Shown: positions 25,775 through 46,144, numbered from the stretch's first letter. The stretch: DNA of 64,000 nucleotides from Geoglobus acetivorans (GCF_039641995.1 NZ_CP087714.1:1054001-1118000), one strand, 5' to 3'. Numbers and translations: made by a program. The notes: generated by a model from the letters alone, not told the origin.

Positions 25775-26662
25775 TCAAACCTTCGGATGTCCTGAAACGT
25801 CTTCGATGTTCTTTGCACCGCTTTCTGTGTGGCAGCTCGAACAGTGCATCTTTCCTCTTGTGTTCTCAATCAGGCCACCCTTGTTGGAGTGGCATGATCC
25901 GCACGTGTTCAGGTCATCGTCCATTTCGTAGTACACATAGGCGAAGGTTCCATCGTGCATGGCATTGATAAGCTCAACAGCCTTCCTTGCAACGTCTGCG
26001 GTGAGTCTAGCACACCTCTCGCTTCTTTCTGGTGAGAATGCTTTGTATCCAGAAACTTCGCACCAGTTTGTGACTGAAGCGTGGCACAGCGGTGAGTTTG
26101 CCACAGAACTTGGCATTGGGTCAAGCTCAGCCTTCATGGCCTTCGGTGGCTTGTATTTGGGTAGCTCTTCGACCTGATACCATGCGTAAAGCTCGTTCAC
26201 GACCTTATCTGCCTCCTCTTCGGGCAGGCACAGATATGCGGCCCATGCGGCACCGTTCAGGGTTCCACAGAGTGTGCCCCATCCAACGACTCCGCCCTTT
26301 CCGACGGTGGATATGCTTGCAACTGGCAGGAATTCTTCATAGGGTGAACCGACCTCGTCTGCAAGGGCCTTTACTATTGCATAGAATGAACCGAAACAGC
26401 AGTGCGCTCCGGGGAGTTCTTCCCCGTCGAAGGTCTTTCCGCAGTAACCCTGGTATCCGAGGTCTGCAACCTTGTCCAGGTCGAGTTTCTTGTACTCCCA
26501 TGGTGGCTCTGGCAGTGATGGGGCTTCTTTTTCTGCAACTTCTGGGGTTGGTGTGCCTGCTGGCTGTGGTGTTGTGGCTAATTTTTCCTCCTCCTGTGCG
26601 CACCCCATCAGAGCAGTCGCAAAAGCAGCCCCCATCATTCCGAGGAAACTTCGCCTGTACAT
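25775..26662 (-). CDS. Split-Soret-type dihaem cytochrome c, Tat lipoprotein
   Basis: A 295-residue exported protein. It starts MYRRSFLGMMGAAFATALMG then Cys: a twin-arginine signal ending in a lipobox, so it is probably an S-layer-side lipoprotein. A Pro/Thr-rich linker follows. The C_GCAxxG_C_C domain spans about residues 70-200 (YCGKTFDGEELPGAHCCFGS, WGTLCGTLNGAAWAAYLC). Two haem sites CGSCH and CSSCH lie in the last 45 residues. This order matches split-Soret cytochrome c of sulfate reducers, which also binds an Fe-S cluster. Its role is electron transfer, partner unknown. ATG 26662 is chosen for the signal peptide and upstream GGTGATAAT. Confidence 0.85.
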   Translation of the reverse strand: MYRRSFLGMMGAAFATALMGCAQEEEKLATTPQPAGTPTPEVAEKEAPSLPEPPWEYKKLDLDKVADLGYQGYCGKTFDGEELPGAHCCFGSFYAIVKALADEVGSPYEEFLPVASISTVGKGGVVGWGTLCGTLNGAAWAAYLCLPEEEADKVVNELYAWYQVEELPKYKPPKAMKAELDPMPSSVANSPLCHASVTNWCEVSGYKAFSPERSERCARLTADVARKAVELINAMHDGTFAYVYYEMDDDLNTCGSCHSNKGGLIENTRGKMHCSSCHTESGAKNIEDVSGHPKV

Positions 26663-26814
26663 ATTATCACCATTATGATTGTGAACTTCGATGCATATAA
26701 ACATTTTGAACGTTCCATATGTAACATTTAACAATGAATAATAAAAACAGATGGATTATTCTCGTAACTGCGCTTTGACCCGATTATGCTAAAATTAATC
26801 CGAAAAAAGTGAGA

Positions 26815-35287: not shown

Positions 35288-37564
35288 TTAATCTGCTTCC
35301 TCGACTCCAACAGTAACTGAAGGCTCTGGATCGACGAAATTTCTGACGAGTATCCAGTCGTAATGGGCACGGGGGTTGTTGGCATGCGTGCTTAGCCCTA
35401 TCCTGTCAATTGCCAGACTTCCGGTGGTGTAGTTTCCAGCAATCATGTGATTGTATATTCCAAAAATCTTTGAACCATCGTATGCAATTCCTCCAACCTG
35501 CCAGGACGATGGATTGACGTAGTTTCCGAGGGTTTTCAGCAGAGTTGCCTGAGAGTAATCGCTTGGAAGTGTGTTGAACTTGATCAGCGTTTCTTCAGAG
35601 CCCCTGGTGTTTGTGCTGTCGTAGTCTGAAACTCTCATTATTGCGATATAGTACTCCCCGTTTGCCGTGCTGATCAATGAGCCGATGGAATCGTCATCCC
35701 CCGTGTATGCTCGTATCTCAACAGCAAATCTTACCGGAAGATTCAGGTTCGTGTTTATGACAAGGAAGAAGTCAGCATTTGAGGTATCTGTTACAACCTC
35801 GCTTCCCGAAGGATTCCAGATGAAGCTCGGCGTTCCGCTCCAGCCCTCAAGAGTCTGGTAGTTTGAGCTCGTATCAGTGTTGAAGTCATCAAAGAACACA
35901 AATACACTGTTTCCATCACTCTTGCTCACGGCGGCGGAGTTTCCGTAGTACATGTATATGGTCTTGTTTTCCCCGGCGTTCAGTGACGGTATTTTCACCC
36001 ATATCTTTGCAGACACACCTGGATTCCACTCCTCTATCCAGTAAGGCAGTTCGTTTCCTGCGATGTCTGTGAACCTCACGTCCGAGCCACCGGAATTCGT
36101 GGCACTCCAGTTGAATGAAGGGCCAAGAGTTACCAGAATCTGGTAGTCTGAGAGAGCTTGACCTGAATTTTCCTGGGTGTATATGGGGACTCTGTATGCC
36201 CATCCGTTCAGGTGCCAGGCTCTTGTGAGGTTTATCACACTGAGAGAAATAACGTCTCCACTGTCCCCCGCAAATGCATATATCTTTGCACTACCGTTTG
36301 AAAGTGCTGTAGCCTGCACATTAACGACCCCGTTGGAGTCTGTGAGTGCGGAGGTGGTGTTCAGTACAATGACTGAGGAATTTGTGACGGAAAATCTAAC
36401 CTCCACACCCGGAACAGGTGAGGACTGGGAATCGACAACTCTGACGGACAGGGTCTTCTTAAAGCCATCTTTCCCGGCGTCCCACACTCCACCGCTGTCA
36501 AGCCAGTTTACCTGCAGCAATGAGCTTGCATTTGTTCCCTGGGGCTGAATTACAGTTATGTTGTATGATGTGCTCAGACTTCCTGCTGAAAATATGACGC
36601 TTCCGCTTCCACCATTCTGGGCTTTGAACGACGTTCTCGCAACACCGGAAATATCTGTCTCTACTTTCGAAGGAACGGCGCTCCCTATCCCTCCGGAAAC
36701 GGTTACGTTAACTTTCAAACCTGTTACTGGGTTCAGATACTCGTCCAGAAGTGAAACACCAAGTTCCTGGATGTCTCCAGCGGACAGTGTGTATGAATCA
36801 AATGGATTGACTTTCAGCATGTACTTTGGACTCGGTTTGAACTCGTGGTCCGAGATAACGATGGTGGATAGAAATCCAGATGGAATTGTGGCCTTCACCT
36901 TGTCGCCCGAAACAGATAAACCTGCACTTGCCCAGTAGTCTGGATTTACACTCTCAAATTCCACTGTGATATTCTCTGCATAAAATCTTCCGCCCGAAGA
37001 GACTGCTCTGAATGAGAACTCGTGGGGGGAATTATATGCCCGGTTGACGCTCGAATTTATTATAACAAGATTGATACCTCCGCTGAGCATTTTCTGGTCC
37101 CCTGCAATCCCGAATCCTCCGTTGCTTTTCTGAAATACTGCCGTGTTCTCAAAGATGAAGGTTGTATCAGGATAGAAGTAGTTATCAATTTTCACGTATA
37201 TTCTGCTGGACTCATAGCTCTTTGAAAGTGTCAGTTTACTGCCGTTTGGCAGCGTGATTTCGGCCGAGATGTTTACAGTAAATGGCTCTGTCCAGATTGA
37301 AAATCCTGCAGGTTCGGGTGTTAGCAGAAAGAGATAGTCAGGATATTCCGGAGTTTTTACAAGCAGGAATGCATTATTTCCAGAGGATATAAGGGCTGAG
37401 AACTTTTCCATTTCGGCCTTAATGGATTTCACGTTGTCATACTCTATCTTTTTCAACTGATCAGGAATCAGAGTGGTCTGAACAAAGGCAAGGAAGATTA
37501 TCATTATCTGGAGCAGGAGAATGAATCCAATTATTGGCGAGACCCCACTGTTGTCTCCAGACAC
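35288..37564 (-). CDS. Large pilin-type surface protein with Ig-like and DUF2341 domains
   Basis: A 758-residue protein. Its N-terminus [20 protein letters not shown] plus a hydrophobic helix matches the archaeal type IV pilin N-terminal domain (GVSPVIG pattern), so it may be processed by the pilin peptidase. Then come beta-rich domains: two bacterial-Ig (Big_1)-like repeats near residues 265-440 ([16 protein letters not shown]-style and [20 protein letters not shown]), DUF2341 near 450-540 ([45 protein letters not shown]), and a C-terminal jelly-roll-like part. It is divergent from the assembly ATPase. It may be an adhesive cap or major surface fibre. Confidence 0.8.
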
Positions 37565-37648
37565 GTTTTCAATTCTGTCACTTCAATAATATAAAGCCTT
37601 CTAAAAATCGAGGAAAGATTTATTATTTTCTTAGAATAATTCATTTCG

Positions 37649-39187
37649 ATGCTCAACAACCCTTACTATCTCAGTATCAGAAACTTCATTGAGGATGCTG
37701 GAATGGAGCTTGTTGAGGGAGAAGAGGTTCCCGAGGGTTACACCGTTGTTGATGAGTACTGGCTCATTGACAGGCTGGCTCTGGTCAGAATTCTTGAGAG
37801 TGTTGAGAGTTACAGAAAAAAATACTGGCTGATAGAACCCCAGATATCTGAAGATGAAGCTATGCTCCTCTATACCATCTATGAAGATGTGAGGCAGAGT
37901 TTCCTTTATTTAATGGGAGAAGACAATTTCGACAGGCTTTTCAAAAGTTTGAAAAAGGTTCTTGGAGACTATGCGGTGAAAACAAAAGATGAGCTTTTCT
38001 ACAAGCTTCTTTACTATTTTGTTCGGGATTTCCTCGGACTCGGGATAGTGGAGCCAATATTGTTTGATGAGAATGTCGAGGATGTGAGTTGTGATGGGTA
38101 TGGGGTTCCGATTTTCGTATATCACCGAAAATACGGGAACATGTCCACCAACATAGTGCTTGAGAAGGATGTCCTCGATAACTACGTTCTTTTGCTCGCT
38201 CAGCGAGCCAACAAGCATCTCAGCTACTCCAGTCCAATCATTGATGCAACCCTGCCTGATGGGAGCAGAATCCAGATAACCTATGGCTCGGAAATCTCCA
38301 CGCGGGGAAGCACATTCACAATACGAAAGTTCAGAGAAGAACCCTTCACCCCGGTTGAGCTGATGGATTTTGGCACGATTTCCGCAAGAATGCTTGCCTA
38401 CTTCTGGATTTTAATTGAAAACAAAAAGAATGTTATGGTCATCGGCGAGACTGCAAGCGGTAAGACCACAACGCTCAACGCTCTCCTGATGTTCATACCT
38501 CCTGACAGCAAAATTGTGTCCATAGAGGACACGAGGGAGATTCAGCTATATCATGAAAACTGGATACCCGAGGTCACACGGCTGAGCATAGAGGGGCAGG
38601 AAATCGATATGTATGATCTGTTAAGAGCAGCTTTAAGACAGAGGCCTGAGTACATAATCGTCGGAGAGGTGAGAGGTAAGGAAGCACAGACACTGTTCCA
38701 GGCAATGGCCACAGGTCATGCGGCCTACGCAACGTTCCATGCTGGGGATGTTAACCAGCTCATCCACAGGCTTGAGGAAGACCCTCTGAATGTGCCAAGG
38801 GTTCTCATCCAGTATCTTGATGCTGTTGCGATTCAGGGCAGATGGGTTACTAAGACCGAGAAAAAGAGGAGAATCAAGTCCGTGTACGAGATTCTTGGAA
38901 TTGAACCAACAACAAAGGAACTTTTGCTGAATCCAGTTTACAGGTGGGAACCTCATGATGACCGGTTCATCGAGACATCCTCTTCCGCCAAGCTGGAATC
39001 GATTTCGAGTTCAACGGGACTTTCAGTATCTGAATTGCTTGAAGAACTTGATAGGCGGACAAAGTTTCTGGAAATGCTGAGAGAACGGGGAGTCAAGAGG
39101 TTTGGGGAATTTGTAAAGTATGTCTCACTATATAACGCAAATTCAGAAATCGCATTCGAGAAGCTCCAAGAAATGGAGGTATCCTGA
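37649..39187 (+). CDS. Type IV pilus/secretion assembly ATPase (TadA/GspE-like)
   Basis: A 512-residue hexameric ATPase that powers assembly of archaeal pilus-like filaments. N-terminal domain about 1-150; Walker A VIGETASGKTTTLNALLMF; Asp box SIEDTREIQLYHENWIPEVTR; Walker B IIVGEVRGKEAQTLFQAMATGHAAYATFHA; the conserved RxxR region STFTIRKFREEPFTP. The C-terminus has extra charged residues. Its stop overlaps the start of the membrane partner (39187), confirming an operon. Confidence 0.93.
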   Translation: MLNNPYYLSIRNFIEDAGMELVEGEEVPEGYTVVDEYWLIDRLALVRILESVESYRKKYWLIEPQISEDEAMLLYTIYEDVRQSFLYLMGEDNFDRLFKSLKKVLGDYAVKTKDELFYKLLYYFVRDFLGLGIVEPILFDENVEDVSCDGYGVPIFVYHRKYGNMSTNIVLEKDVLDNYVLLLAQRANKHLSYSSPIIDATLPDGSRIQITYGSEISTRGSTFTIRKFREEPFTPVELMDFGTISARMLAYFWILIENKKNVMVIGETASGKTTTLNALLMFIPPDSKIVSIEDTREIQLYHENWIPEVTRLSIEGQEIDMYDLLRAALRQRPEYIIVGEVRGKEAQTLFQAMATGHAAYATFHAGDVNQLIHRLEEDPLNVPRVLIQYLDAVAIQGRWVTKTEKKRRIKSVYEILGIEPTTKELLLNPVYRWEPHDDRFIETSSSAKLESISSSTGLSVSELLEELDRRTKFLEMLRERGVKRFGEFVKYVSLYNANSEIAFEKLQEMEVS

Positions 39188-41130
39188 TGCCCTATACTCC
39201 TTCGTTTTTGAGGAGAAGGTATGCCCGGAAATGGCTGAAAAACAGAAAGAAATATGCAGATATAGACAGGGCCCTCAAAGCTTCCAGGCTGAATTTCACC
39301 GTGTATGAGTTTCTTGCAGCTGCTGCTTTTTACTCATGTCTGGTATTTGTGGTCTCGTTCATTTTTTTCAGTCTTGCTGTAAAGGTGTTTTTTGACGATA
39401 TTGCGAGATATGCAGTCAGCTTTACAGTTAATGAACTGGTCAGGTTTCTGATGCCAACCGTGAAAAACGTCCCCCATCTCGGGATTGGAGATTTGGTTTC
39501 AGGCTATTCTCACCTGGCGTTGTATTATGCCGAAAAGTATTATTACATTGTCATGCTTATTCCCTCTTACCTGTTTTACAGACTTGCCAGATATGCTATT
39601 CTATCTTATCCATTCTTTCTGGCCAACAGGAGAAAGGGCGAGATAGATCTGTATCTCCCCCATGCAGTAAATATGATGTATGGAATGGCCGTGGGAGGTC
39701 TGAGTCCAGTAGAGGTTTTGAAGGAGGTTTCAAAGCTTCATTATCTTTTTGGAGAGGTCAGCGTTGAGCTGAAAGAAGTTATCAAGCATTTTGAGGTGTT
39801 CAGGAAGGACATTTTTTCGAGCATGAGGTATGTCAGAGACACGACACCGAGCAAAAAGCTTTCAGCGTTTCTGGATAGCCTGATAGTGGTGTTGCAGGGA
39901 GGAGGGAGTCTGGTAGATTATCTCAAATCCAAGTCTGAAGAATACGAGGAGGAGAAGGACATCGCCTTTGATGAGGTCACGAGCTTCATGGAAATCCTGT
40001 TTGAGATATACATTTCCATATTCATGATGTTTCCGTTGCTGCTGCTGATCGTACTCGTTGTTTCAAAATTCATCTCTCAGGACATAATGGATGGATATGT
40101 TTACATGATTTATCTCCTGCTCCCGGTTTCCGCAGTGTTCATAATCTACCTGGCGAGGTCAACTCTCCCGTTTACTGGATCTTCTATAGTGGTGGTTAAG
40201 GATGAGGGCCTGGCGGCGAATGTTTACATCTATTCCAGGAAGGTGAGGAGGTTCAAAAGGAGCCTGGTGAAAGAAGTTATTAACAAAATCGTAAGATTTG
40301 CCCTGCATCCCTACACGACCTCCATCGCCTACATGGACTCAAAGATAGTGGCAGTGCATGTGCTTCTTTACTCTGCTGCTGCGTTCTACATTTTATGGAG
40401 CAGAAATTACATTGAGCCTGAAAATTACGCAATACCTGCTTTTGCACTCTTTTCCGTACTTACTGTAATCTTTGAGATGAAGCACAGGGTGATTTCACGA
40501 GCTGAGGAAAGGCTGCCTGAATTCTTCAGTGAGATTGCCATGCTCAACGAGTCAGGTGTCTCTATCTTTGATGGGATAAGGCTGGTATCCAGAGGAGGGA
40601 CTGACATTCTGTCGAGGGAATTTGCAGACATTGGGAGATATGTCGAGATCGGTCTTCCCGTCACGAGATCCTTTTCGAGACTTGCGTATCGAATAAAAAG
40701 CGATATTTTTGCAAAGGCGATTCCTATAGCTGTAAAGACCCTTGAAACAAACTCCACGGTAAAGGATGCATTTACTACTGTTTCCAGGTTCATTGAATCT
40801 GAGATTTTATTCAGAAAGAGGTTAAAGTCCAGCCTCATGCCCTACCTTGCCATAGTTTACCTTTCTGTTGGGGTTTTCATCTTTGTAACATATCTGCTTA
40901 TTTCCAAGTTTCTTGTCGTCTTCTCCGGAATGGATGTTGAGGTAATGGGGATGAAGGCGTCATTTGATGTTGAAATGATAAGACAGACATTCATGAGAAC
41001 ACTATATCTCATTTCATTTCTTTCGGGGATCATTGCAGGAACGATATCGGAGATGAGGGTTACTGGTGGATTCAAGCACGCCCTGGTCCTGACTTTCATT
41101 ACCTACGTGTCTTTCACGTATTTTGTCTGA
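39187..41130 (+). CDS. Type IV pilus assembly membrane platform (TadC/FlaJ-like)
   Basis: A 647-residue polytopic protein with two T2SSF repeats. Repeat 1 lies near 150-290 (LYLPHAVNMMYGMAVGGLSP, RDTTPSKKLSAFLDSLIVVL, GGGSLVDYLKSKSEEYEEEK) and repeat 2 near 440-600 (ERLPEFFSEIAMLNESGVSI, then FDGIRLVSRGGTD). Membrane helices follow each repeat. It recruits the ATPase at 37649 and anchors the pilus base. No prepilin peptidase is in the window. Confidence 0.92.
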   Translation: MPYTPSFLRRRYARKWLKNRKKYADIDRALKASRLNFTVYEFLAAAAFYSCLVFVVSFIFFSLAVKVFFDDIARYAVSFTVNELVRFLMPTVKNVPHLGIGDLVSGYSHLALYYAEKYYYIVMLIPSYLFYRLARYAILSYPFFLANRRKGEIDLYLPHAVNMMYGMAVGGLSPVEVLKEVSKLHYLFGEVSVELKEVIKHFEVFRKDIFSSMRYVRDTTPSKKLSAFLDSLIVVLQGGGSLVDYLKSKSEEYEEEKDIAFDEVTSFMEILFEIYISIFMMFPLLLLIVLVVSKFISQDIMDGYVYMIYLLLPVSAVFIIYLARSTLPFTGSSIVVVKDEGLAANVYIYSRKVRRFKRSLVKEVINKIVRFALHPYTTSIAYMDSKIVAVHVLLYSAAAFYILWSRNYIEPENYAIPAFALFSVLTVIFEMKHRVISRAEERLPEFFSEIAMLNESGVSIFDGIRLVSRGGTDILSREFADIGRYVEIGLPVTRSFSRLAYRIKSDIFAKAIPIAVKTLETNSTVKDAFTTVSRFIESEILFRKRLKSSLMPYLAIVYLSVGVFIFVTYLLISKFLVVFSGMDVEVMGMKASFDVEMIRQTFMRTLYLISFLSGIIAGTISEMRVTGGFKHALVLTFITYVSFTYFV

Positions 41131-41169: not shown

Positions 41170-41943
41170 ATGGAACTGATTGAGCTTCTCGACGAGGCAA
41201 TGAGTATAGGATATTCCCGAGTGCCTGACATTCAGTCTGAAATGTATTCGGTAATTGGAGATATTCATGCCGATTCCAGAGCCCTGAAAATTTTAGTGAG
41301 GGAAGCGTTCAGACCGGTAATCTTCCTGGGAGATTATGCGGACAGGGGTGGCGAGCCGGTTGAGGTATACAGGACCATCCTCGAGGGATATATCGACGGA
41401 GATTTTATTCTCCTCAGGGGAAATCATGAATCTGGGAATGTAATGCCTCATGATTTACCCTACATGCTGGAGAGGGAGGAATGGGGGCCAGAGTTTTACA
41501 GAAAGCTTCAAAAATTCTGGAAAATGCTCCCCTGCTGCTGTGTAATAAACGGCGATGTCTTTGCGGTGCATGGTGGAATATACACAAGGGGCTGCAGGAT
41601 CATCAATAGGGGTGTAAGGCGTTCGGAATTAATGCGGGAGGATGCTGAGATTGAGCTGATGTGGAATGACCCTTGGGAAAACAATGAATGTGTGCGGAAT
41701 TTTGAAAGGGGGATTGGTTACAGATTCGGTCCCAAAGCCACCGACAGATTCCTTGAGGATCTCGGTTTGAAAGTTGTGGTGAGGAGTCATGAACCCTACA
41801 AGGTTATGAAGGTCGAGCATAATGGCATGGTTGTCACCATCGGGTCAACGGGAGTATATGGTACGAGAATTGCAAGACTTAATGTTTGTGGAAAATTCAG
41901 AGATGGATATGAGTTAAGCCAAAATTTTGGGGAAATTTTTTAG
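41170..41943 (+). CDS. PPP-family metallophosphatase (Ser/Thr phosphatase type)
   Basis: A 257-residue enzyme with all PPP motifs: VIGDIHADSRAL (GDxHG), FLGDYADRGGEPVEV (GDxxDRG), LLRGNHES (GNHE), VFAVHGGIY (HGG), and VVRSHEPY (SH). It removes phosphate from proteins using two metal ions. It is 39 bases after the pilus membrane gene and could act on pilus or respiratory regulation, but archaeal PPP enzymes have broad targets. Confidence 0.9.
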   Translation: MELIELLDEAMSIGYSRVPDIQSEMYSVIGDIHADSRALKILVREAFRPVIFLGDYADRGGEPVEVYRTILEGYIDGDFILLRGNHESGNVMPHDLPYMLEREEWGPEFYRKLQKFWKMLPCCCVINGDVFAVHGGIYTRGCRIINRGVRRSELMREDAEIELMWNDPWENNECVRNFERGIGYRFGPKATDRFLEDLGLKVVVRSHEPYKVMKVEHNGMVVTIGSTGVYGTRIARLNVCGKFRDGYELSQNFGEIF

Positions 41944-42167
41944 CTTTTTGTTTTGTAGCTGGTGTATACCCTCAGCAGGCCGTTTATTGCGAGGAGCGCA
42001 GCAACGAGTCCTGCAATTACGTGTATTCCACCTTCGTATGCTGGAATCGCGCCAGAGCTGAGAACCCATAACCACATGAACGCCAGCTGAAGGCCTCCAA
42101 CCACGAGTCCCGCAAATACCAGCATTATGAATATCGTTTTCAGGTCAAAGGTCTCAAAGAGCTTCAT
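41940..42167 (-). CDS. Small two-helix membrane protein of the cytochrome locus
   Basis: A 75-residue protein with hydrophobic segments at about 10-35 and 44-65 and a positively charged tail. No family recognised. It lies 43 bases downstream of the 12-haem cytochrome on the same strand, so it is probably an accessory or anchor subunit. Its stop region overlaps the phosphatase gene by four bases, tail to tail. Confidence 0.65.
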   Translation of the reverse strand: MKLFETFDLKTIFIMLVFAGLVVGGLQLAFMWLWVLSSGAIPAYEGGIHVIAGLVAALLAINGLLRVYTSYKTKS

Positions 42168-42210
42168 ATGTCAAAAAAGTTGGAAAGAGTATTTAAAAAT
42201 TTTTCCACTT

Positions 42211-43068
42211 TTATTTGTGACAGGTTGTGCATTTGAGAGTCGGGTAGTGGTCTTTCCTGTCTGTGTGGCACGTTTCACAGATCGTCCTGACGTCTATGTT
42301 CTTGTGGGGCACGTGGCAGGACTTGCAGTCTTTGTCTGCGTGGTACTTGTGGATTGGTTTGTCTGGCAGGCTGTGGCAGGTCTGGCATGAGAACGGCTCG
42401 GCGGTTATATGTGGCTGGTGGCAGTTGCTGCACTCACTCTCTGAATGGGCACCTTCAGGCAGTGCGAGGATGATGTCTCTGTCCTTGTGGCACTTCTTAC
42501 AGTCCTGTGATGTTGGAAGGATGTTTTCCCCGTTTGTCTTCACGTCGGCTAAGAAGTTGTGGCAGTTGGTGCAGTGGAAATCCATCTGCGGAACCTTCAT
42601 GGATATATCGCTGTGGCACTTATTGCACTCTGAGTTGTCCGGCACGAACTTGTGGACTCTTCCCCCATGACAGTCTATACAGTTGGCCTTGGCGTTTTCC
42701 AGATGATATTTGTGCCCCGCTGTGTCCGCAACGTATGGCCATTTTTCTGATTTCTGGAAGTGGCAGTTTTCGCATTTTTCATTGGGTATCACTACGTGGA
42801 CGTCGTCTGAAACTTCTTCTGGCTGGAGGGTGAAGTATGTTACGAGCAGTCTCATGTTGTCCTGTATACTCGCTTCATGGCACTCGTGACAGGTTATCCC
42901 CTGGTGTGGGCTCTGGTTCCATTTGTTCCATGCCTCTTCCATCAAGTGGCAGGTTTTGCAGAATCTTGGATCTTTTTCGATGAACATGAACGTATTGTAG
43001 CCTTCGGCAGCCACTATCAGGCCTGCCACTATCAGGAAAAGGAGTAGCATTGCAGCCTTTCGTTCCAT
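42211..43068 (-). CDS. Dodecahaem c-type cytochrome with NrfH/NapC-like N-terminus
   Basis: A 285-residue protein with one N-terminal membrane helix (residues 4-24) and twelve CxxCH motifs. The first two (FCKTCHLMEEAWNKWNQSPH, then CHECH) have the NapC/NrfH quinol-dehydrogenase layout, including the Met and S-x-H features. Ten more follow: CENCH, CIDCH, CNKCH, CTNCH, CKKCH, CSNCH, CQTCH, CKSCH, CETCH and CTTCH. Many extra His could be axial ligands. It would take electrons from menaquinol and pass them outside. It lies 164 bases after the NrfD-like gene, with possible own promoter, within the same minus-strand block. Confidence 0.92.
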   Translation of the reverse strand: MERKAAMLLLFLIVAGLIVAAEGYNTFMFIEKDPRFCKTCHLMEEAWNKWNQSPHQGITCHECHEASIQDNMRLLVTYFTLQPEEVSDDVHVVIPNEKCENCHFQKSEKWPYVADTAGHKYHLENAKANCIDCHGGRVHKFVPDNSECNKCHSDISMKVPQMDFHCTNCHNFLADVKTNGENILPTSQDCKKCHKDRDIILALPEGAHSESECSNCHQPHITAEPFSCQTCHSLPDKPIHKYHADKDCKSCHVPHKNIDVRTICETCHTDRKDHYPTLKCTTCHK

Positions 43069-43232
43069 GGCTTTCCCACTTTCCCAGTTAATAAAAATTT
43101 TGCGTATTGTACCTTAAATGCAAAAGAAAATAAAGTTGATTAATGGATTTTCTCAAAGTTTCAAAAACTGTAAATCTCAGGGATTTATAGCTTGGAATTT
43201 GTGAACCATTCCCGGAAAAAATAAAAAGGTAA

Positions 43233-44435
43233 TTATTCGGCTTCTGTTTTTTCCCACTCGTGCGGATGCTCCCATGGTGGCAGCAGCTTGATCAACACCG
43301 CCAGTATTATGAATGGCAATATCCAGATGGCTAAGGCGAGTGAAAGGCTTTCTGGGCCAAATAGTGGCATTATGTATGTTGTGTACCCGAGGTATGTCTT
43401 TGATATCAGCTGACCACCTATCACCACATTCCATCTCATTGCAAAAACGCCGATGAGTGTCAGAGTGGTGACAAATATGTATATCCATTTTCTGACGTTG
43501 AACTTGAATATACCTGTCCTGGCGATTATCAGCAGGAATATCGGTACGAGGGTGCCAAGGAAGACCTGAATCACGATGAATGTCCAGAACAGTTTGTCTG
43601 TTATCAGCACTCTTATTGCATCTATGCCCTCTTCCTGCGTGTAAAACAGGTGAGCAAGCTCCATGAACTCTAAGGAGAGGTCCAGCAGATATGAGTAGAG
43701 CAGGTAATTGGCGAGCGTATCTGTACAGGCTCTGTCAAGCTCAACCCCTCTTATGTAGCTGCTGACTATGTATATCAACAGGACGAGTGCAATTCCTGAG
43801 ACCATCGCTGAGAACAGGAAGATTATTGGCATCAGAGGTGAACTCCACCAGTGATTTGCCTTAACGCTCCCGAATATGAACCCGACATAGCCATGCAGGA
43901 ACGCAGCTGAAGGGAGACCAATAACAGTAACGATGTTCACGATTTTGTTATCTGCTTTGACAGCCTCATCGCTTATGTTGTAATCTCCGAGGGTGAGTAT
44001 CTTATATATAAAGCCCTTAATTCCACCCACTTCCTGGGACCACATTACTATGTCTTTTCTGTAGTCGAAGTAAAGCTCTATCAGCAGGACTGCCATAAGG
44101 TACCAGGCATAGACGAAACCGAAACCTGCCATTGCTGACGAGAGGTGGGGTGTCATCATGATCTCAAGGGCCCTTTCAGGATGTCCCAGATGCGCGACCA
44201 GCGGCAGTGGAGCGCATAACAGGAAGGCGAGAGCCGTTAACAGTGCAAGCCTGTAGGTGGGCTTCACGGCCTCAACTTTGAATATTCTTTCGAGAGATGC
44301 GACAATAAATGCTCCAGCCACGAGACCAGTTATGTAGGGATAGAGAGCAATGAGGACACTCCAGTTAACCTCGACCTCGTTGGGGTATATGTATCCCTGA
44401 ACGTGCTGGAGAACCTGCCAGAGAATTTCACTCAC
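43233..44435 (-). CDS. NrfD/PsrC-like integral membrane quinone-interacting subunit
   Basis: A 400-residue protein with about nine to ten membrane helices, typical of NrfD/HybB/ActC families: LAFLLCAPLPLVAHLGHPER, the PLMPIIFLFSAMVSGIALVL segment, MRWNVVIGGQLISKTYLGYT. The conserved residues around GHPER match the quinone site region. It oxidises or reduces menaquinone and pairs with the upstream FeS subunit (stop/start separated by one base). Confidence 0.92.
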   Translation of the reverse strand: MSEILWQVLQHVQGYIYPNEVEVNWSVLIALYPYITGLVAGAFIVASLERIFKVEAVKPTYRLALLTALAFLLCAPLPLVAHLGHPERALEIMMTPHLSSAMAGFGFVYAWYLMAVLLIELYFDYRKDIVMWSQEVGGIKGFIYKILTLGDYNISDEAVKADNKIVNIVTVIGLPSAAFLHGYVGFIFGSVKANHWWSSPLMPIIFLFSAMVSGIALVLLIYIVSSYIRGVELDRACTDTLANYLLYSYLLDLSLEFMELAHLFYTQEEGIDAIRVLITDKLFWTFIVIQVFLGTLVPIFLLIIARTGIFKFNVRKWIYIFVTTLTLIGVFAMRWNVVIGGQLISKTYLGYTTYIMPLFGPESLSLALAIWILPFIILAVLIKLLPPWEHPHEWEKTEAE

Positions 44436-44436
44436 T

Positions 44437-45198
44437 TCATCTCACCTCCGAGTCAAGCTCAATATAGTAAACCTGAGGTAACGTTCCCATATCGGGCTTA
44501 AGTACCTGAACTCTTCTCTCTTCTATGATCTTCCTGACTTCATCTTCCGGATCCATCAGATCTCCGAATTTTCGTGCTCCCACAGGGCACACTTCAACGC
44601 ATGCGGGCTTGTAGCCCCTGGTAATCCTGTGGTAGCACCATGTGCATTTGTCAGCGGTGTTTCTTCTAGTCTCTCTCGGACCATCGGCCGGATAGAGGTA
44701 TCTTGCCCCATACGGACATGCCTGGATGCAGTATCTGCACCCAATGCAGTATTTCTCATCCACAAGAACAACACCGTCTTTCGTCTTGTATGTTGCACCA
44801 ACCGGACAGACCTGAACGCATGGAGGTCTGTCACAGTGATTGCAGAGCTTTGGGACGTAGTAGGATTTAGATATCATCCTCTCATCGTATGTAGGCGGAA
44901 ATCCGTCAAATCCACCGTTTGGAGAATCCACTTTGGGCCCCTCTTCATCTTTAAGCCACACCCATCTTTCCACCCATGTCCTGAAGTAAAATGGCTTCAT
45001 CGGGACTTCGTTCTCGATCTTGCAGGCTCTCACGCACCTTCCACATCCAATGCATCTCGTTGTATCGACGACAAAGGCATATTTGTGTTTGTTCCAGTCG
45101 TAGCCTTCAACCGGCTCCTGAGCTGCTACTTTTCTCTTAAAGCTGGCAAACCCGGCGACAGCAGCAATAATGGCCAGAAACTTTCTTCTACTGACCAT
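44437..45198 (-). CDS. Tat-exported FeS subunit with four [4Fe-4S] sites (NrfC-like)
   Basis: ATG 45198 opens MVSRRKFLAIIAAVAGFASF, a twin-arginine signal; the longer upstream frame would run into the cytochrome gene. The mature part has four ferredoxin cluster motifs: CIGCGRCVRACK, CNHCDRPPCVQVCPVGA, CIGCRYCIQACPYG and CTWC with PACVEVCPVGAR. It is the electron-carrying partner of the NrfD-like protein. It overlaps the tetrahaem cytochrome gene by 11 bases. Confidence 0.93.
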   Translation of the reverse strand: MVSRRKFLAIIAAVAGFASFKRKVAAQEPVEGYDWNKHKYAFVVDTTRCIGCGRCVRACKIENEVPMKPFYFRTWVERWVWLKDEEGPKVDSPNGGFDGFPPTYDERMISKSYYVPKLCNHCDRPPCVQVCPVGATYKTKDGVVLVDEKYCIGCRYCIQACPYGARYLYPADGPRETRRNTADKCTWCYHRITRGYKPACVEVCPVGARKFGDLMDPEDEVRKIIEERRVQVLKPDMGTLPQVYYIELDSEVR

Positions 45199-45673
45199 TG
45201 TCAACACCTCTCTTGAACACCCACGGTGAGTGAGGGTTGTGGCACTCAACACAGGCAAGCCCGTAACCGTGCTCGTCAGTAAACTTCTGAGGGAAGTCTT
45301 CAGGCCTTGTGGGATTGAACTCATGGCAGAGCTTGCACAGCTCTCTTGTGGTATCTATTTCCGGGTGATATGTGGTGGGGTTCTCCACGTGCTTCATGCT
45401 CGGTCCGTGACATGTCTCACAGCTCAGGGTTGAATGTTTGCCCCGATTCAGAAATTCGACCTTTTCTGGATGACACTGCTCGCACATTTCTTTCGTGGCA
45501 AATTTCATGTCATACTGCATAATTTCTCTGACTGAATCTCCTCTAAACCATCTGTACGTGTAGTCGTCTGTAAACTCCCCGAATGTGGGGGGGACGATAA
45601 CAGTTCTCAGCATTAAAAATACTAAGACGAATGTCAGGTATATCAGCAAAAATCTCCTCGTCGCTGCTCGCAT
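45188..45673 (-). CDS. Tetrahaem c-type cytochrome, membrane-anchored
   Basis: A 161-residue protein with one N-terminal helix (residues 7-27, LLIYLTFVLVFLMLRTVI) and four CxxCH motifs: CEQCH, CETCH, CKLCH and CVECH. First gene of the minus-strand operon followed by the FeS and NrfD-like subunits. Together these three resemble a quinone-dependent redox complex of the CISM type, as in ActA-B-C or Hmc-like modules. GAGGTG lies upstream of the ATG at 45673. Confidence 0.9.
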   Translation of the reverse strand: MRAATRRFLLIYLTFVLVFLMLRTVIVPPTFGEFTDDYTYRWFRGDSVREIMQYDMKFATKEMCEQCHPEKVEFLNRGKHSTLSCETCHGPSMKHVENPTTYHPEIDTTRELCKLCHEFNPTRPEDFPQKFTDEHGYGLACVECHNPHSPWVFKRGVDNGQ

Positions 45674-45832: not shown

Positions 45833-46144
45833 TTAAAGTCCAAGTCCTCTTGCGATAGCCTGAAAAACGTCGTTTGCTATGTTTATTCCGTTCATCTCTA
45901 GAATTATGTTAAGCACGGCTCCGATTACCGCACCCACGATAAGGGAAGATATTATCCTGATTTTGATTATCAGAATTAGTGCTATCACCAGCAGAACGAG
46001 GGTGGAAACTGCACCAATCTGGGCAAGCTGCTGTGCCGTTTCTTCCATGGCCATGTTCATGAAATTGAAAAGGGTCGCTATTCCGGACATGCCGAAAAGA
46101 AGGCCTATTATCAGACCGATGGCAACAAACGTGTTATCCGCCAT
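45833..46144 (-). CDS. Small membrane protein of unknown function
   Basis: A 103-residue protein with three hydrophobic stretches (about 5-28, 40-62 and 66-83) ending in an amphipathic tail. No family recognised. It is separated from the tetrahaem operon by 159 bases of A/T-rich DNA that carries the operon's likely promoter and is divergent from the RNA methyltransferase. Confidence 0.55.
   Translation of the reverse strand: MADNTFVAIGLIIGLLFGMSGIATLFNFMNMAMEETAQQLAQIGAVSTLVLLVIALILIIKIRIISSLIVGAVIGAVLNIILEMNGINIANDVFQAIARGLGL

Follow-up and report, generated by a model that had tools for sequence, protein, structure and literature searches.

A block of four genes in the genome of a hot-vent Geoglobus closely related to G. 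acetivorans likely encodes a menaquinol-to-cytochrome export system for Fe(III) respiration, in which a 12-haem cytochrome, here called cyt12, would serve as the wire. The assignment draws on cofactor motifs, export signals, membrane anchors, sequence conservation, the joint inheritance of cyt12 with its core proteins, and the lack of dsrA in the genomes that carry cyt12. A system of this kind is already known, having been proposed in 2015 for Fe(III) reduction in a sister species. Two points are new in the genome comparisons presented here. First, one form of the core (type A) is never found apart from cyt12 in a genome, nor cyt12 apart from it, even when their genes are unlinked. Second, the core itself, which consists of a tetrahaem cytochrome (cyt4), an iron-sulphur protein (FeS), and an NrfD-like membrane protein, is a reusable unit, whose outlets in Archaeoglobales are the 12-haem cytochrome, a 10-haem NrfH-headed cytochrome, or an HAO-like octahaem protein. 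The route from the quinol pool to minerals in archaea without an outer membrane is largely unproven, and the module is a compact candidate for its first step.

Layout of the block and its core proteins

The window, i.e., the whole stretch of 64,000 nucleotides that was analysed, corresponds to G000:C1:1054001-1118000 of a 1.90-Mb genome. The first-pass annotation had placed four genes at 41940-45673, and every one of them was found where it had been placed, on the minus strand. The genes code for cyt4 (45188..45673), FeS (44437..45198), NrfD (43233..44435), and cyt12 (42211..43068). The cyt4 and FeS genes overlap by 11 bp, and FeS and NrfD are spaced by 1 bp. Between NrfD and cyt12 there is a gap of 164 bp, and the block may therefore not form a single transcript. 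Counts of motifs gave sixteen haems and four iron-sulphur clusters for the four genes, in agreement with the numbers first given (4 + 12 CXXCH motifs and 16 cluster cysteines were found). Nearly all differences between the window and Geoglobus acetivorans are at the third position of codons, in all four genes alike (in the case of cyt12, 50 of the 55 changed codons are silent), which indicates that the four genes are under selection.

Two small membrane proteins, also encoded on the minus strand, flank the block and recur with the four genes in other Geoglobus. A 103-aa protein upstream of cyt4 (45833..46144), a possible subunit, is found at the same position in G. acetivorans and in genome G030; a small membrane protein that also precedes the second module described below has weak sequence likeness to it. 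A 75-aa protein with two predicted membrane helices (41940..42167), another possible small subunit, gave no match in a Pfam search. Its homologues lie directly after cyt12 in genomes G025, G027, and G030; near the G031 cluster there is a weak homologue. A bacterial promoter/terminator scan of the window was set aside, since such a scan is not meaningful for an archaeon. Elsewhere in the window, neighbours of the module at 35288-41130 include a gene for a Pilin_N/DUF2341/Big_1 protein, one for a T2SSE ATPase, and one for a T2SSF membrane protein. Similar ATPase and membrane genes are found near core A of Ferroglobus placidus (L052). A lipoprotein-like ORF with two CXXCH motifs on the minus strand (25775-26734) is similar to a C_GCAxxG_C_C redox protein, and an ORF like it, GAH_00301, is listed for G. 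ahangari (PMC4600277).

The cyt4 protein is a predicted membrane-anchored tetrahaem cytochrome c with an N-terminal hydrophobic helix, and is the proposed acceptor of electrons from FeS. Its four CXXCH motifs and exactly four further histidines are invariant in an alignment of 12 homologues. FeS is an NrfC/PsrB-like protein, predicted to be exported by the Tat pathway, that matched Fer4 families and whose closest solved chain in a PDB comparison was 2vpw_B (E=4.6e-49). Its twin arginine and 16 cysteines, which form the pattern of four [4Fe-4S] sites, are conserved in 12 homologues. The FeS ORF as initially listed, extending to 45324, was rejected as too long; the reading frame starts at an ATG giving MVSRRKFL, and the product is 253 aa.

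NrfD, the proposed site of quinol oxidation, has a GTG start, about nine hydrophobic segments, and a strong match to PF03916 (E=1.6e-37, 130.3 bits versus a cut-off of 25.8). Its profile aligns with ActC, a quinol-oxidising subunit of Alternative Complex III. His82 of the window protein aligns to ActC His139, which we take to be a quinol-site residue; the NrfD of the second module has Asp there. A fair quinol site is therefore predicted in NrfD, which makes it a better candidate than the head of cyt12. An AlphaFold model of NrfD, built from a thin alignment of 2 sequences, had a mean pLDDT of 38.3 and was discarded. Given the twin arginine of FeS and the N-terminal helices of cyt4 and cyt12, the redox domains of all proteins except NrfD should face outward.

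As the first-pass annotation held, no molybdopterin or NrfA gene is present within the block. In the whole genome, the sole gene matching PF00384 codes for formylmethanofuran dehydrogenase subunit B (FwdB), and no molybdenum reductase was found elsewhere. A PF02335 match at genome positions 316405-316863 was not taken as NrfA, as it is partial and lies within a 6-haem lipoprotein-like ORF.

The 12-haem cytochrome and the quinol pool

When the residues of cyt12 were shuffled 20,000 times, a mean of 0.17 CXXCH motifs was obtained, and never more than four, versus the 12 observed. Nine orthologues retain every one of the 12 motifs, together with 13 other invariant histidines and the methionine of a CXXCHxM motif, and the packing is dense, with the twelve motifs falling within about 250 residues. 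The conserved extra histidines in cyt12 and cyt4 provide enough candidate distal ligands to cap every haem. Such a predicted supply of ligands is as expected for electron carriers and not for a catalytic open haem, i.e., for a wire more than for a catalyst. An AlphaFold model of cyt12 (thin alignment, 3 sequences) had a mean pLDDT of 36.6 and was discarded.

The head of cyt12 (NrfH match at 10-64) contains an N-terminal helix, corresponding to the NrfH-type anchor, and CXXCHxM at haem 1, invariant in the nine orthologues. NrfH and NapC models cover only the anchor and the first two haems, about the first 60-75 model positions. Compared with Desulfovibrio vulgaris NrfH, the loop containing Lys82 and Asp89, which we take to be the quinol ligands, is about nine residues shorter and has no conserved Lys or Asp, in a region where the alignment is uncertain. 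These features bear on whether cyt12 could itself be a quinol oxidase of the CymA/ImcH type, acting in parallel to the NrfD core or alone, in which case the quinol pool would have two exits, perhaps tuned to different redox potentials. The NrfH-like anchor with its invariant CXXCHxM would suit this role, as would the gap between NrfD and cyt12 in the window and the unlinking of cyt12 from the core in three genomes; moreover, in Geobacter sulfurreducens CbcL works alongside ImcH (PMC6295460). What speaks against it is the shortened loop without conserved Lys or Asp, the NrfH match spanning the first two haems only, and the fact that core A is always co-inherited with cyt12, and we consider it unlikely that cyt12 oxidises quinol. 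Anchoring may be all that the head does. The earlier claim of two quinone-interacting proteins in the block is not supported as it stands: NrfD offers a fair site, whereas cyt12 has a partial NrfH match and a shortened quinol loop.

Co-inheritance, the proposed route, and exchangeable outlets

Names of the relatives were inferred, with G025 taken as G. acetivorans, G026 as G. ahangari, and G023 as F. placidus. The type-A NrfD proteins, including that of the window, form a single clade (support 99/100) found in nine genomes, which are exactly the nine carrying cyt12. The cyt12 gene follows NrfD in five Geoglobus genomes and is a convergent neighbour in G055. It is unlinked from core A in three genomes: F. 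placidus, a Ferroglobus MAG, and G031. In F. placidus, a T2SSE/T2SSF pair is still near the core, and cyt12 is elsewhere. The gene order of the block, which the first-pass annotation had suggested looking for, was found again in Geoglobus; in Ferroglobus, the 12-haem gene has been relocated. Neither core A nor cyt12 was found in the Geoglobus drafts G028 and G029. No full-length relative of cyt12 was found outside Geoglobus, Ferroglobus, and two other genera of the order; in a scan of genome contigs, the sole search that reached bacteria, only a Geoglobus and a Ferroglobus MAG matched. In G055 (L034:2451-5677), core A has as its neighbour a Rieske/cytochrome b complex accompanied by 5-haem and 2-motif cytochromes, and ORFs similar to these neighbours (L054, L033) occur near the G031 pieces.

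Among 57 genomes of the order, dsrA exceeded the cut-off in 32 of the 48 that lack cyt12 but in not one of the nine that carry it, an exclusion expected by chance at 2e-4 when relatedness is ignored. As the carriers belong to four genera and represent few independent events, the absence of dsrA supports, but does not decide, a link to Fe(III). A likely role in extracellular metal reduction, put forward in the first-pass annotation, is supported by this absence in all carriers and by the proposal of the sister-species genes for Fe(III) reduction (PMC4683180, PMC4600277).

We infer the direction of electron flow, the order of the chain, the assembly into one complex, the type of quinone, and Fe(III) as the final acceptor as follows. 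NrfD would oxidise menaquinol in the membrane and pass electrons to the four clusters of the outward-facing FeS. From FeS, electrons would move to membrane-anchored cyt4 and then to cyt12, whose twelve closely spaced haems would form a membrane-tethered wire to large surface cytochromes and, finally, Fe(III) oxides. Named Geoglobus species are reported to use Fe(III) as their sole acceptor, by direct contact (PMC4600277, PMC8280799). The 280-305 kb region of the genome codes for proteins with 22, 29, and 23 CXXCH motifs and for tetrahaem proteins; the 22- to 29-haem proteins and homologues of a nanowire subunit are plausible candidates for the downstream acceptors of the module. The three giant proteins (L081 and L082, G000:C1:286566-304932) are secreted cytochromes of 1319, 1659, and 1862 aa, two of which have MtrC/MtrF-type domains. 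A tetrahaem protein (L081:6242-7000, G000:C1:284741-285499) matches PDB 8E5G (E 9.8e-49), the extracellular cytochrome nanowire subunit AvECN of A. veneficus (PMC12954529). Tetrahaem ORFs at G000:C1:285667 and 296827 have an AvECN-like N-terminal pattern, as judged by eye. Geoglobus may thus have cytochrome filaments.

A second module of the same genome, module B (G000:C1:694586-698525), codes for a small membrane protein, an 8-haem protein, FeS, NrfD, and a 10-haem NrfH-headed protein. It resembles the window module (module A) in combining a small membrane protein, a cyt4-like cytochrome, FeS, NrfD, and an NrfH-headed multihaem protein. It differs in that the donor has eight haems instead of four, and in that the 10-haem outlet has a zinc-ribbon-like N-terminal domain and, unlike cyt12, matches the whole NrfH model. 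The zinc-ribbon-like stretch, CPFC...CEVC, precedes the membrane helix in this protein (L024:9477-10526) and its orthologues. In the window species and G. acetivorans, the cyt4 of module B (L024:6923-7609) has doubled in size, to 8 haems, but it has 4 haems in other Geoglobus and Ferroglobus; this distribution suggests that the enlargement is recent.

In G. ahangari, F. placidus, and genus g3, a cyt4-FeS-NrfD core follows, in an operonic arrangement, an HAO-like octahaem protein; among solved structures, 4qo5 is its best match, and HAO-type enzymes rank next. Genome G342 (family f36) has the order 5-haem, 3-haem cyt4-like, FeS, NrfD, 5-haem, and 12-haem, and the 12-haem protein of f36 genomes is nearer to the 10-haem protein of module B than to cyt12. 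Haem counts matching those of f36 were reported for Methanoperedens MPEBLZ_03194/03195 and MPEBLZ_04299/04300 (PMC4683180), which suggests that f36 is the Methanoperedens family. The NrfH-headed dodecahaem build is therefore less unusual than it first seemed: the genome also codes for a 10-haem version, and another archaeal family has NrfH-headed proteins with 12 haems.

A core that serves as a general donor should be joined to differing multihaem outlets, as is seen here, and Fe(III) is possibly not its only acceptor, since in other species it is paired with HAO-like octahaem proteins. These associations could mean that the module feeds a soluble nitrogen- or sulphur-compound reductase outside the membrane, e.g., an HAO-like octahaem enzyme, and is not dedicated to Fe(III). 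Two HAO-like octahaem genes are indeed present in the window's genome (L085:1714-3432 and L082:16002-17345). However, they are unlinked to the NrfD core there, the NrfD proteins linked to octahaem genes fall outside the type-A clade, and Fe(III)-only use is reported for the named Geoglobus species (PMC8280799), which makes a soluble acceptor quite improbable. Returning to export of electrons to Fe(III), it is conceivable, though doubtful, that Archaeoglobales and relatives share one exchangeable quinol-oxidising core with swappable outputs, and that replacement of an octahaem reductase by a 12-haem wire, with a non-quinol-binding head as its anchor, turned soluble-acceptor respiration into mineral respiration. 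The swap between 12-haem and octahaem outlets, together with co-inheritance of unlinked genes, yields testable predictions on which protein sets the acceptor.

Comparison with known systems

Several known systems share parts with the block. The Nrf system (NrfABCD/NrfHA) was rejected, as there is no NrfA in the block and the NrfC, NrfD, and NrfH models (TIGR03149, TIGR03148, and TIGR03153) scored below their cut-offs, with 155/377.6, 59/347.6, and 40/134.2 bits. The Qrc menaquinone reductase was rejected likewise (QrcA and QrcC models at 16.5/180 and 115/400 bits; no QrcB large subunit). Reverse flow, with the module acting as a Qrc-like quinone reductase fed by outside cytochromes, is highly improbable: while NrfD-type modules run in both directions in known systems and the FeS and multihaem parts weakly resemble Qrc, the Qrc models are far under the cut-off, no QrcB-like gene is present in the genome, and the carriers include Fe(III) reducers, which need an exit for electrons and not an entry.

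A likeness to Alternative Complex III and PsrBC is seen in FeS, which is nearest to PsrB in PDB, and in the NrfD profile, which is nearest to ActC. Alternative Complex III was excluded, since FeS is only 253 aa and no fused Mo-like/FeS ActB or ActB1-like large subunit is encoded in the block. An N-terminal anchor followed by an NrfH-type first haem motif and then more haems is common to NrfH, CymA, ImcH, and cyt12. ImcH has three transmembrane helices and a CX3CH first motif (PMC6295460), whereas cyt12 has one transmembrane helix and twelve CX2CH motifs, which excludes its identity with ImcH.

The closest counterparts are in Geoglobus. Orthologous genes in the same order are present in G. acetivorans (gace_0099-0102, 98-99% protein identity; 98% for cyt12) and in G. 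ahangari (GAH_00283, GAH_00286, and the genes between, 71-90%). According to PMC4683180, the genes that Mardanov et al. 2015 put forward for Fe(III) reduction include gace_0099-0102 and gace_1341-1344. These sets fit modules A and B by position and by homology (GACE_0102 to a 3-haem and GACE_1341 to a 12-haem protein); the mapping of locus tags is ours, made via genome position and homology. Reported haem counts are 4 for GAH_00283, 12 for GAH_00286, 4 for GAH_01253, and 10 for GAH_01256 (PMC4600277). The same source describes GAH_00286 as having no transmembrane helix and suggests an outer-surface location from its size; by contrast, we predict an N-terminal anchor, which argues for a membrane tether of the 12-haem protein. 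The pathway in PMC8280799 repeats earlier Geoglobus proposals. Neither the modular comparison nor co-inheritance was found in the literature on these genomes, in which the two main papers on the sister genomes are represented by the papers citing them.

The block has all the parts of an NrfD/FeS quinol:multihaem cytochrome oxidoreductase module, namely NrfD, an exported four-cluster FeS, and an adjacent multihaem cytochrome, the activity being predicted. The NrfD-type menaquinone:cytochrome c oxidoreductases of Methanoperedenaceae likewise combine NrfD, an FeS ferredoxin, and multihaem cytochromes, and were proposed to transfer electrons outward from menaquinol (PMC7327174, PMC7082337); they differ from the window module in their set of cytochromes. 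The block is probably a menaquinol:cytochrome c oxidoreductase plus an outlet.
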